This document shows, one piece after another, positions 5,814-8,932 of a stretch of DNA of 64,000 bases. This stretch comes from Mesorhizobium sp. WSM4904. GTDB lineage: Bacteria > Pseudomonadota > Alphaproteobacteria > Rhizobiales > Rhizobiaceae. How positions within the stretch are numbered: position 1 is the stretch's first letter; every line of letters begins with the position of its first letter. The position numbers and the translations under genes are program-made. A model generated the notes under the pieces. The model worked only from the letters and a program-made list of their open reading frames with translations. It ran no database searches and had not been told where the DNA came from. Location of the stretch: positions 558,001 through 622,000 of the forward strand of contig NZ_CP121354.1 of NCBI RefSeq assembly GCF_029674545.1, written 5' to 3'.

Positions 5814-6449
5814 ATGAGTTATAGCGAAAACCTCTGGCTTTTCTTCATCCTGCTGTTCGGCATCATCGCCGTGCCGGGCATGGATATGCTGTTCGTGCTG
5901 GCCAACGCGCTGACCGGCGGCGGCAATCGGGGCCTTGCCGCGACCGCCGGCATCATGCTGGGCGGCGCGGTGCACACGCTGAACGGCGCGGTCGGCGTCG
6001 GCCTGCTCATGCATTTCGTGCCGATCCTGTTCAAGCCGCTGCTGATCGCCGGCGCCGCCTATATGGCATATATCGGCATTTCGCTGATGCGCAGCTCGAT
6101 CACCGTCGGCGATGACGGGCCGGCCGGCAGCCGCTCCGCCTGGAAGGCTTTTCGGCAGGGGTTGGTCACCTGCCTGATCAATCCCAAGGCCTATCTCTTT
6201 ATCCTCGCGGTCTATCCGCAGTTCCTCAAGCCGGCCTACGGTCCGATCTGGATGCAGGCGACAATCATGGGGTTGCTGACGGTCGCCACCCAGGCCGCCA
6301 TCTATGGCGGGCTCGCAATCACCGCGGGGCGCAGCCGGGCGATGCTGGTCGACAATCCCGGGGCGACCGCTTTTGCCGGGCGCGCGGCCGGGCTGCTTTT
6401 GTTTGCGGTCTCGGTTTTCACCGCATGGGAGGGGTTGAGGGCGGCGTGA
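5814..6449 (+). CDS. LysE/RhtB-family amino-acid exporter
   Basis: 211 residues. Hydrophobic segments and the family motif PGMDMLFVLANALTGGGNRG near the N-terminus mark the LysE/RhtB translocator family, which exports amino acids or related compounds across the inner membrane. The central GLVTCLINPKAYLF motif is also typical. ATG 5814 was chosen because the helix begins there and it matches the usual length of about 205-210 residues; a longer frame opens at 5787. The substrate is unknown. Confidence 0.85.
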   Translation: MSYSENLWLFFILLFGIIAVPGMDMLFVLANALTGGGNRGLAATAGIMLGGAVHTLNGAVGVGLLMHFVPILFKPLLIAGAAYMAYIGISLMRSSITVGDDGPAGSRSAWKAFRQGLVTCLINPKAYLFILAVYPQFLKPAYGPIWMQATIMGLLTVATQAAIYGGLAITAGRSRAMLVDNPGATAFAGRAAGLLLFAVSVFTAWEGLRAA

Positions 6450-6460
6450 TCGCCGCCCTC
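6437..6460. terminator. Bidirectional hairpin between convergent lysE-type gene and aroG
   Basis: GAGGGCGGC and GCCGCCCTC form a perfect 9-bp stem with a 6-base loop that overlaps the exporter stop codon. It lies 14 bp beyond the aroG stop on the other strand. There is no clear T-run, so termination on either side is only likely. Confidence 0.4.
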
Positions 6461-6473
6461 TCCGACGCGCCGC

Positions 6474-7565
6474 TCAGGCAGCGCCCTGGCGGGTTGCGAG
6501 CAATTCGCGCTTCACCGACCGGCGCCATTCGACGGCGCCGGCAAGGCCGTGCAGCACCGTCTCGGTGGCCGCCCAGTCGATGCAGCCATCGGTGATGCTC
6601 TGCCCGTAGGCGAGCGGCTTGCCGGGCACGACGTCCTGACGGCCGGCGACGAGGTTGCTCTCGATCATGACGCCGATGATGCGCTCGTCGCCCGCCGCGA
6701 CCTGGCCCGCCACGTCATGCGCGACTTTCGGCTGGTTCTCCGGCCGCTTGCCGCTGTTGGCGTGGCTGACGTCGATCATCAGCCGCGGCGCGACGCCGAT
6801 GCGGCCGAGCTCCGCGGCGGCCGCATCGACACTTGCCGCGTCGTAGTTGGGCACCACACCGCCACGCAGGATGACATGGCAGTCCTCATTGCCGGTGGTC
6901 GCTGCGATGGCGCTGCGGCCACCCTTGGTCACCGCCATGAAATGATGCGGCTGGGCGGCCGACTTCACCGCTTCGCCGGCGATTCTCAAATTGCCGTCGG
7001 TGCCGTTCTTGAAGCCAACCGGGCAGGAGAGGCCCGAGGCCAGCTCGCGATGGATCTGGCTTTCGGTCGTGCGCGCGCCGATGGCGCCCCATGCGACGAG
7101 GTCGGCGATATATTGCGGCGTCGTCATGTCGAGGAACTCGGTCGCCGCCGGCAGGCCGAGATTGTTGACGGCCGACAGCACGTTGCGCGCCATCCGCAGC
7201 CCCTTGTCGATGTTGAAGCTGCCGTCGAGATCGGGATCGTTGATCAGGCCCTTCCAGCCGACCGTGGTGCGCGGCTTCTCAAAATAGACGCGCATGACGA
7301 TCTCGAGCCGGTCCGCCAGGGCCTCGCGCAGCGCCGCCAGACGGCTGGCATAGTCCACGGCGGCGACCGGATCGTGGATGGAACAAGGGCCGACGATGAC
7401 TACCAGTCGATCGTCGGCCCCGGTCAGGATGGAATGGATGGCGTTGCGCGAAGCGGCAACGGTGCGCGTCGCCGTCAGTGAGCGCGGTATCTCGCGCATC
7501 ACCTCGTCCGGCGTGCTCAGGACTTTGAGTTCCTTGACCCGAAGGTCGTCTGTGGTGGTCAACAC
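6474..7565 (-). CDS. aroG: 3-deoxy-7-phosphoheptulonate synthase, AroF/AroG/AroH (class I) type
   Basis: 363 residues from the proposed GTG start. The enzyme condenses phosphoenolpyruvate with erythrose 4-phosphate, the entry step of the shikimate pathway. Family motifs are VVIVGPCSIHDP, MRVYFEKPRTTVGWKGLIND, GARTTESQIHRELASGLS and PVGFKNGTDG. The GTG at 7565 is preferred because AGGAG stands 8 bases before it and the frame then gives the normal family length of about 350-360. Upstream lies an aromatic-amino-acid leader peptide and a terminator, so the gene is very probably controlled by transcription attenuation. Confidence 0.93.
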   Translation of the reverse strand: MLTTTDDLRVKELKVLSTPDEVMREIPRSLTATRTVAASRNAIHSILTGADDRLVVIVGPCSIHDPVAAVDYASRLAALREALADRLEIVMRVYFEKPRTTVGWKGLINDPDLDGSFNIDKGLRMARNVLSAVNNLGLPAATEFLDMTTPQYIADLVAWGAIGARTTESQIHRELASGLSCPVGFKNGTDGNLRIAGEAVKSAAQPHHFMAVTKGGRSAIAATTGNEDCHVILRGGVVPNYDAASVDAAAAELGRIGVAPRLMIDVSHANSGKRPENQPKVAHDVAGQVAAGDERIIGVMIESNLVAGRQDVVPGKPLAYGQSITDGCIDWAATETVLHGLAGAVEWRRSVKRELLATRQGAA

Positions 7566-7603
7566 GGCTTCTGCTCCTGGTTGGGAGACCTGCCGGCTGA
7601 AAC

Positions 7604-7634
7604 GAAAAAGCCGCCAGGTCTGGCGGCTTTTCGG
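7604..7634 (-). terminator. Attenuator terminator in the aroG leader
   Basis: On the minus strand GAAAAGCCGCCAG (7632-7620) and CTGGCGGCTTTTTC (7617-7604) form a stem of about 12 bp ending in a run of five T, a standard intrinsic terminator. It sits between the leader peptide stop and the aroG GTG. The 3-prime arm word CTGGCGGC also occurs in the leader at 7682-7675, so that copy can pair with the terminator 5-prime arm instead and prevent termination. Confidence 0.85.
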
Positions 7635-7652
7635 ATTTAGATGCTGCAATCT

Positions 7653-7730
7653 TCAGATCGAGCGCAATCCTCCCGCCGCCAGCGAGCTGTCGTAGTAAAA
7701 GTACCAAAACGAGGCGGTCAGGTGGATCAT
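7653..7730 (-). CDS. Leader peptide rich in aromatic residues (Phe-Trp-Tyr-Phe-Tyr-Tyr), aroG attenuation
   Basis: This is a 25-codon frame. It starts ATG ATC CAC CTG and reads MIHLTASFWYFYYDSSLAAG, ending in TGA. Codons 8-13 are Phe, Trp, Tyr, Phe, Tyr, Tyr, an extreme concentration of exactly the three end products of the pathway that aroG begins. A CTATAT -10 box ends 8 bases before the ATG, so the transcript probably starts at or very near the ATG and the peptide would be leaderless, as is known for trpL in Sinorhizobium. Region CTGGCGGC at 7682-7675 lies 9 bases after the last Tyr codon and can form the antiterminator. A longer in-frame ATG at 7739 overlaps the -10 box and is unlikely. 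Confidence 0.85.
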   Translation of the reverse strand: MIHLTASFWYFYYDSSLAAGGLRSI

Positions 7731-7737
7731 GCGGCCC

Positions 7738-7766
7738 ATATAGTCGATGCGAAGGCGGTTGTCACG
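7738..7766 (-). promoter_or_regulatory. Promoter of the aroG leader transcript
   Basis: On the minus strand CGTGAC (7766-7761), a 17-base spacer and CTATAT (7743-7738) match the rhizobial housekeeping consensus CTTGAC-N17-CTATAT in 11 of 12 positions. The expected start of transcription, 6-8 bases after the -10 box, coincides with the leader ATG at 7730. Confidence 0.75.
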
Positions 7767-7846
7767 TGTCTGATGGTGCTGCTCTCTGGGAATGACCACT
7801 TGAAACAGCGATAGCCGCGTTGGCAATGCCAATTGTCGATGTCGGC

Positions 7847-8034
7847 GCCGCCCCTCATCGCCCTGCCGGGCACTTCTCCCCGTATAGTGACGGGGAGAAG
7901 GGGGCCGGCCGCACCCTCGGCCCTAGCCTTGCTATGTCGGCAATTTGGCGAGACCGCCGGCGACAGCGCCCCTCTCCCCGTCACTATACGGGGAGAGGAT
8001 GCCGGCAGGCAGGTGAGGGGCAGCGCCGAGGCCC
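7847..8034. repeat. Inverted-repeat intergenic element, family D
   Basis: Two arms face each other across about 70 bp. The left one (7847-7905) contains the hairpin CTTCTCCCCGT/ACGGGGAGAAG with loop ATAGTG. The right one (7968-8034) contains CCTCTCCCCGT and ACGGGGAGAGG around the complementary loop. Outside these, CCCCTCATCGCCCTGCCGG on the left matches the complement of the right flank. Both arms together look like a small non-autonomous palindromic element. It fills the gap between the aroG promoter and the SDR gene; no gene is evident there. Confidence 0.75.
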
Positions 8035-8137
8035 GAGGAACAAGGCGAGGCGGCGGCATCGGTCTTCAAACTGAGCTTGGACCCGATAACTGTCAAAAGT
8101 CGATGCTGCCCCTCGTTGCCCGGTGCACCGGCGGCCC

Positions 8138-8932
8138 TTACTCGCCGATGACCCCAGCTATGTTCTGATCGTAGTCGACCAGCGAGCCGGTCATGACGCC
8201 GGCCTGGGGACTGAGCATATAGGTGATCAGCCGGGCAAGCTGCGCCGGCTTGACCAACTGGCCCATCGGCTGGGCGGCCTCGGCCTTTGCCAACCAGTCG
8301 TCCGGCGCGTCGTGCCATTTCTTCTGCACGATCGCCTCGCCTTCGGTGTCCATCCAGCCGGGCAGCACCGCGTTGCAGCGGATGCGGTTCCGCCGATAGG
8401 AGCTCGCGACATTCTTGGTCAGCGTCATCAGCGCACCCTTGCTGGTGGAATAGGGCGTCAGGAAGGACTGGCCGGCATGCGCCGACATCGACAAGACATT
8501 GACGATCGAGCCTGGCGCCTTGCGCTCCAAAAGATGCGCGACCAGGCCCTGCATCAGGAAGAAGGGCCCGCGCACATTGGTGTCGAAGATCTGGTCGAAC
8601 AGCTCTTCCGATGTCTCGACCAGCGAGCCGCGCGCCGAGGTAGCGGCGGCGTTGACCAGCGCGTTTAGCGTGCCGAAATGAGCAATCGCCGTTGCGACGG
8701 CGCGCTTGCAGTCGGCGACCTTGGCGACGTCGGCGCTGATGAAGATGGCGTCGACGCCGCTCTTCTTGAGCGCGGCCACCGCTTTGTCGCCCTTCTCCTG
8801 CGAGCGGCCGATGAGCGCCAGCGCGCGGCAGCCTTCGTCGGCGAGCGCCTCCGCGACAGCGAAGCCGATGCCCTGCGCGCCACCGGTGACGATGGCGCGC
8901 GTTTCTGAATTGCGACCGGCCAAACCGTTCAT
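8138..8932 (-). CDS. Short-chain dehydrogenase/reductase (SDR)
   Basis: 264 residues. The cofactor motif TGGAQGIG is at 16-23 and the catalytic Tyr-x3-Lys is YSTSK at 161-165, both classical SDR features. The enzyme would oxidise or reduce a hydroxyl/keto group with NAD(P). It lies downstream of idhA on the same strand but is separated by a 375-bp gap holding a family A repeat, so a role in cyclitol metabolism is possible but not shown. Confidence 0.85.
   Translation of the reverse strand: MNGLAGRNSETRAIVTGGAQGIGFAVAEALADEGCRALALIGRSQEKGDKAVAALKKSGVDAIFISADVAKVADCKRAVATAIAHFGTLNALVNAAATSARGSLVETSEELFDQIFDTNVRGPFFLMQGLVAHLLERKAPGSIVNVLSMSAHAGQSFLTPYSTSKGALMTLTKNVASSYRRNRIRCNAVLPGWMDTEGEAIVQKKWHDAPDDWLAKAEAAQPMGQLVKPAQLARLITYMLSPQAGVMTGSLVDYDQNIAGVIGE

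Follow-up and report, generated by a model that had tools for sequence, protein, structure and literature searches.

A candidate attenuator with an aromatic leader peptide upstream of type I DAHP synthase genes in Rhizobiales and other proteobacteria

Upstream of the type I DAHP synthase gene in the 64-kb stretch of Mesorhizobium DNA under analysis (hereinafter the window), a short open frame with a run of six aromatic codons is followed by a terminator, and we consider this arrangement to be, very probably, a ribosome-mediated transcription attenuator with charged aromatic tRNAs as its signal. A sequence-only reading had earlier proposed an aromatic leader ahead of DAHP synthase, and its overall anatomy was confirmed when the sequence was reread. 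Its attenuation reading has likewise gained support, in that the frame, the terminator, the antiterminator core, and the promoter spacing are kept in nearly all loci that we compared.

Anatomy of the leader and the DAHP synthase genes of the genome

The features of the leader and of the gene that follows it are collected in Table 1. The promoter-like element CGTGAC-N17-CTATAT (7766-7738) agrees in 11 of 12 positions with CTTGAC-N17-CTATAT, a consensus given in the sequence-only reading, and the leader ATG falls 7 nt past the -10-like hexamer. Between the leader frame and the GTG start of the DAHP synthase gene (7565-7563) is a hairpin rich in GC and ending in a T-run (7631-7605); its stem pairs GCCGCCA (7627-7621) with TGGCGGC (7616-7610), and the T-run occupies 7609-7605. 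The promoter score, the 25-codon frame, the six aromatic codons, and the terminator with its T-run before the GTG were all found as described earlier, as was the recurrence within the leader of a word of the terminator 3′ arm (CTGGCGGC); the CCGCC placed at 7716-7712 actually sits at 7717-7713, one base off. A mechanical promoter and terminator scan returned zero sites in 7400-8150, which we ascribe to its use of a different sigma-70 consensus and to A-T pairs that prolong the terminator stem into the T-run. Farther upstream of the leader are two inverted copies of a near-palindrome built on CCCCGTCACTATACGGGG (7873-7900 and 7971-7998), which look like a dispersed palindromic repeat.

Table 1. 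Positions in the window of the leader elements and of the DAHP synthase gene downstream of them
Feature	Position	Strand	Remarks
-35-like hexamer CGTGAC	7761..7766	minus	Read from the sequence
-10-like hexamer CTATAT	7738..7743	minus	Read from the sequence; 17 nt from CGTGAC
Leader-peptide frame MIHLTASFWYFYYDSSLAAGGLRSI	7653..7730	minus	25 codons; ATG 7730-7728; stop TGA 7655-7653
Six aromatic codons TTT TGG TAC TTT TAC TAC	7692..7709	minus	Phe Trp Tyr Phe Tyr Tyr; codons 8-13
Segment 1	7713..7728	minus	Predicted partner of segment 2 (protector 1:2); MFE folds
Segment 2 core CTGGCGGC	7675..7682	minus	Copies terminator 3′ arm; predicted antiterminator 2:3
Segment 3 AAAAGCCGCCAG	7620..7631	minus	Terminator 5′ arm
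Segment 4 TGGCGGC + T-run	7605..7616	minus	Terminator 3′ arm
Type I DAHP synthase gene	6474..7565	minus	363 aa; GTG start; called aroG in the sequence-only reading

The enzyme encoded downstream of the leader scores 517.8 bits with the NCBIfam aroFGH model TIGR00034 (cut-off 173.2) and matches the DAHP synthetase structure PDB 1n8f (E 7.8e-139) and the Phe-regulated DAHP synthase structure PDB 1gg1 (E 1.1e-138). With the NCBIfam AroG equivalog it reaches 531.6, under the cut-off of 568, and with the Trp-sensitive AroH subfamily 492.7, over the cut-off of 463; hence, the name aroG serves as a label only. Residue 211 of DAHP synthase bears on feedback specificity, and the window enzyme has an alanine where PDB 1n8f has Ser211. 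A protein search of its own genome with the type I enzyme gave one match; PF00793 finds a second match there, which we take to be KdsA, and the same genome encodes a type II DAHP synthase (C1:3965472). Three smaller genomes of the same genus, with sizes of 3.3-4.5 Mb (G005, G012, and G023), show neither a type I gene match nor a strong match to the leader model; all three retain a type II DAHP synthase gene, which is in two pieces in G023.

Conservation within the order and reach beyond it

The type I gene search was positive in 36 of 61 relatives and in 59 of 397 genomes of the order, 52 of the 59 being new, and the upstream regions compared here come from 88 loci, that of the window among them, distributed over five families of the order. 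Identical or nearly identical leaders in named records suggest that these families include Mesorhizobium, Bradyrhizobium, Devosia, and Rhizobium. A short aromatic frame followed by a terminator lies upstream of the type I gene at all 88 loci; the sequence-only reading, which had staked its claim on the frame being conserved in relatives, is borne out on this point across the order. Under a single rule (an ATG-initiated frame of 10-60 aa in the 280 nt upstream, including an eight-codon stretch with four or more aromatics), a frame was recovered in 88/88 upstream regions as against 24/1760 dinucleotide shuffles. The same rule, applied to both strands of the roughly 630 nt that precede the type II gene, was satisfied at 1 of 20 loci (18 of the genus together with G041 and G051, among 60 genomes having a type II gene). 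These counts, along with the kept spacing and the compensatory changes described below, make it hardly credible that a chance frame merely happens to lie between a promoter and an ordinary terminator, a reading with which the failure of the mechanical scan to list either of these elements would agree. A covariance model of the leader gave E-values below 1e-18 in 24 of 41 genomes, adjacent to the type I gene in each case, and these 24 are exactly those of the 41 in which the protein search found a type I gene.

Phe, Trp, and Tyr are all present in the leader at 86 of the 88 loci and in 56 of the 58 distinct leader peptides. When peptides are aligned on the Trp (n=56), the preceding residue is F or Y in 49, and the residues that follow are most often Y (51), F (50), S (38), and Y (36). 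The Trp codon is replaced in L085 and L086 (FYSY), for which reason these two had escaped a stricter leader filter. Together with L087, L088, and L151 they belong to a Rhizobium-like lineage with a divergent leader, YASRFYWY or YASRFYSY; such leaders, with either a Trp codon or TCG in its place, constitute a natural pair for testing Trp sensing. The Phe codons of the 38 Mesorhizobium-group leaders are TTT in 52 of 55 instances, compared with 127 of 569 in 40 mechanically chosen long open frames of the window, where Phe is mostly encoded by TTC; the preference for TTT may keep a loop unpaired or slow decoding.

The promoter spacing is similarly conserved, with GACA 33-36 nt before the leader ATG at 83/88 loci and CTA starting 13-16 nt before it at 81/88; at three of the spacing exceptions, L041, L042, and L049, the second of two ATGs had been chosen as the start. 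A Shine-Dalgarno-like 4-mer precedes the leader ATG at 2/88 loci and at 0/13 of the listed leaders from other orders, classes, or families. The leader frame is apparently leaderless, that is, the RNA would start at the ATG itself with no Shine-Dalgarno sequence. A second in-frame ATG at 7739, 9 nt upstream, overlaps the -10 box and has a counterpart at 29 of the 38 loci of the genus; since this upstream ATG is found at only 34 of the 88 loci overall, the inner ATG (7730) emerges as the conserved start. In the Burkholderia and Oxalobacteraceae examples, we read a TATA-like box as lying farther upstream of the leader; accordingly, these leaders may have a short 5′ region that lacks a Shine-Dalgarno sequence.

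The earlier description of the leader as rhizobial proved too narrow, as similar leaders occur ahead of this gene in other alphaproteobacterial orders and in Beta- and Gammaproteobacteria. Among the best 80 named type I loci of a longer list, each taken with 400 nt of upstream sequence, the same aromatic rule finds an ATG frame at 64 (37/800 for shuffles) and none at 16. The combination of an aromatic frame, a GGCGG word, and a GGCGG-T terminator is seen at 53 of these best 80 loci under a rule that additionally admits GTG starts, by which L121 enters. These 53 include records from Methylosinus, Phenylobacterium, Xanthomonas, Dyella, Burkholderia, Massilia, and Bordetella; a Caulobacter record (L158) has the aromatic frame and falls outside the 53. 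A class-level search of 385 genomes recovered the type I gene in 14, of which 12 were new, and an aromatic frame is present at 10 of the 12 new loci (doubtful in L217), with no aromatic leader seen at L211, which lies at a contig edge, or at L214. For two of the class loci (L215 and L216), an inner GTG or TTG start was listed, with an in-frame ATG just upstream.

These codon compositions bear on what the leader would sense. One alternative retains the same attenuator as, in effect, a sensor of Phe and Tyr only, with the single Trp codon being incidental. We regard it as somewhat unlikely, given that Trp occurs inside the aromatic run in 56 of the 58 distinct peptides of the order and that a modelled ribosome placed on the Trp codon is predicted to yield the antiterminator. 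On its side are the presence of exactly one Trp codon in each Trp-bearing distinct leader, against several for Phe and Tyr in most, the absence of a Trp codon from L085 and L086, and the Trp content of the 53 full-architecture named loci: 38 have a Trp codon, 35 within the aromatic cluster and 3 only outside it, and 15 have none. In the three-way attenuator, the single Trp codon would contribute to Trp sensing. A second alternative holds that the nascent peptide, rather than codon supply, is the sensor, as in the nascent-peptide arrest of TnaC. The residues around the Trp are indeed strongly conserved in the order, as such a sensor would have it, but the remainder of the peptide differs between families, F and Y exchange in the aromatic columns, and the beta- and gammaproteobacterial leaders keep aromatic density and not the order of residues, which renders this alternative very improbable.

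RNA pairings and modelled ribosome positions

In the attenuator that we propose, transcription would begin at about 7730, and a ribosome would load straight onto the 5′ AUG of the leaderless RNA. When Phe-, Tyr-, or Trp-tRNA runs short, the ribosome would stall on codons 8-13 and cover segment 1, whereupon segment 2 (CUGGCGGC) would be freed to capture the terminator 5′ arm (the 2:3 antiterminator), and with 2:3 formed RNA polymerase would continue into the DAHP synthase gene. When all three tRNAs are plentiful, the ribosome would advance over segment 2, segments 3 and 4 would pair, and transcription would end before the gene. The transcript start, the stalling, the termination, the readthrough, and the three-way sensing are parts of this attenuator reading that we infer. 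The terminated leader RNA or its peptide might act in trans too, a behavior described for rnTrpL/peTrpL in Sinorhizobium and compatible with the attenuator. The RNA would be about 125 nt long and is well conserved in sequence, which would suit such a role; we nevertheless view action in trans as distinctly unlikely.

A GGCGG word stands between the aromatic run and the stop codon at 85/88 loci, its distance from the run being 11 nt in 67 and 8 nt in 16 (together 83/88), and at these distances it matches the core of the terminator 3′ arm. Minimum free energy folds of the window's leader predict 1:2 as long as segment 3 has yet to be transcribed, 2:3 after its synthesis, and 1:2 together with 3:4 at full length. 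Pairs were counted in 24 aligned leaders, drawn from the 88 so as to span the groups. The six core terminator pairs form in 24/24 of these leaders and show almost no variation, in keeping with the need of these bases to suit two partners.

Compensatory changes are present to some extent in the antiterminator. On the positive side, two of the eight pairs of antiterminator 2:3 are changed on both sides, one from G-C to A-U in two sequences and the other from C-G to U-A or G-C in three; the G-C to A-U change comes from two g26 rows, in which the corresponding terminator pair is U-G. On the negative side, the RNAalifold consensus comprises the terminator and a separate 3-pair helix without 2:3, and shows changes on both sides in only 1 of 10 pairs. 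The covariation score of 2:3 is reached by 0/500 shuffles and exceeds all six slid registers, with the caveat that with this tool related sequences can beat shuffles in the absence of structure. The count of 2:3 pairs changed on both sides is reached by 162/500 shuffles and that of further pair types by 159/500, and the outermost 2:3 pairs often fail (18/24 sequences at columns 68-133). In terms of duplex energy against mononucleotide shuffles across the 88 loci, p=0.05 is reached by 2:3 in 42% and by 1:2 in 64%. The protector 1:2 stands out in the window and in the greater part of the Mesorhizobium and Bradyrhizobium groups; outside these two, many loci have a 1:2 that does not surpass the shuffles.

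In our model, the ribosome covers the RNA between a point 14 nt upstream of the P codon and a point 12 nt beyond the first base of the A codon; P(2:3) denotes the probability that segment 2 is paired with the terminator 5′ arm when the transcript ends immediately ahead of segment 4. The group means of P(2:3) are 0.85-1.00 for an A site on the aromatic codons, versus 0.01-0.10 past them, and the value is higher on the aromatic codons than past them in 88/88 models, a drop that is partly built in because the modelled ribosome covers segment 2. When segment 2 is shuffled in 22 representatives, the on-codon mean falls only from 0.90 to 0.56, and 40/330 shuffles equal or exceed the observed P(2:3). 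For the window itself, a ribosome on any of the six aromatic codons leaves the terminator 5′ arm paired upstream with a probability of at least 0.96; the next codon after the run gives 0.25, and other positions past the run give 0.19 to 0.74. The same upstream pairing is also 1.0 when no ribosome is present, when one sits on codons ahead of the run, and at the two final positions. When the partial transcript is folded without a ribosome, P(2:3) is 0.98 in Mesorhizobium, 0.93 in Bradyrhizobium, and 0.97 in group f50, and 0.00-0.34 in the other three of the six groups; with the ribosome at the stop codon, the values for the first three are 0.98, 0.74, and 0.99, respectively. In full-length folds with the ribosome on aromatic codons, the terminator still wins in groups f6, f16, and g26 (0.97-1.00), so the switch there must be kinetic. 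The models thereby offer a picture, and not a proof, of a kinetic switch with conserved parts.

Database comparisons and relation to known attenuators

No curated RNA or peptide family searched (Rfam, Pfam, and NCBIfam) fits the aromatic leader. Rfam has no match at its cut-off over 6300-8300; the best-scoring leader family there is Phe_leader (RF01859; 23.8 bits against a cut-off of 55, E 0.44). The best Rfam match of any kind, RNAI (31.7 bits against a cut-off of 47, E 0.0018), covers the terminator region only and was rejected. NCBIfam has no match for the leader peptide of the window or of six relatives, and Pfam yields for these a La-domain match alone, in one relative and below the cut-off (E 0.082). 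A second copy of the leader was also considered: of the many regions weakly matched by the RNA model (E 1e-3 to 1), six were inspected with a looser rule of three aromatics in eight, and none of the six has an aromatic leader on the same strand. Terminator-like hairpins are present in five of these regions and none in L198, and L195 has a 21-codon aromatic frame by the looser rule on the strand opposite to the weak match. A scan of the same genome for trpL with TGGTGGTGG produced 169 matches against 175 for the control.

In the part of the literature covered here, the available main text of PMC2965389 does not contain aroG, DAHP, Rhizob-, aromatic, 3-deoxy-, deoxyheptonate, phenylalanine, tryptophan, or tyrosine. 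The available portion of PMC3766115 names His, Leu, Thr, and Trp attenuators as in Rfam, with Ile/Val and Phe attenuators known besides, and does not contain aroG, aroF, or DAHP. The available portion of PMC4842269 reports 320 transcription starts that lie 0-10 nt ahead of a start codon in Bradyrhizobium japonicum, and does not contain aroG, attenuat-, or leader peptide. The novelty of the aromatic leader, judged against these databases, is provisional.

DAHP synthase is the entry point to the three aromatic amino acids, and its textbook control is by repressor proteins together with feedback on isozymes. The distribution described above is consistent with an old, widespread, and as yet unnamed attenuator family in Alpha-, Beta-, and Gammaproteobacteria in which one leader combines the supplies of Phe, Tyr, and Trp into a single decision at the entry to the shikimate pathway, and in which some lineages have acquired or lost the Trp codon, the sensed set having thereby itself evolved; we judge the chances that this is correct to be about even. 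If true, a single RNA switch reading three supplies would be a compact alternative to repressors and isozyme feedback, and the natural leaders with and without a Trp codon would make the number of codons needed per amino acid directly testable.

Among known systems, trpL of Sinorhizobium meliloti is a leaderless attenuator with Trp codons only, which controls trp genes. The leader described here resembles it in being alphaproteobacterial, in apparently starting at its own AUG, in its codons for a product of the pathway, and in its predicted antiterminator and terminator; it differs in having six codons for three aromatic amino acids and in its location before the first common step. With the pheL/trpL-type attenuators of Escherichia coli, it has in common a leader peptide and the predicted 1:2, 2:3, and 3:4 pairings, whereas those leaders have a Shine-Dalgarno start and sense one amino acid. 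Several amino acids are read by one leader at a shared pathway step in thrL and the ilv leaders; here, the set would be Phe, Trp, and Tyr, and the step that of DAHP synthase. The DAHP synthase genes of E. coli are controlled by the repressors TyrR and TrpR, which act on transcription initiation: the enzyme and the end-product signals are the same, and what is achieved there by repressor proteins would here be achieved by attenuation.
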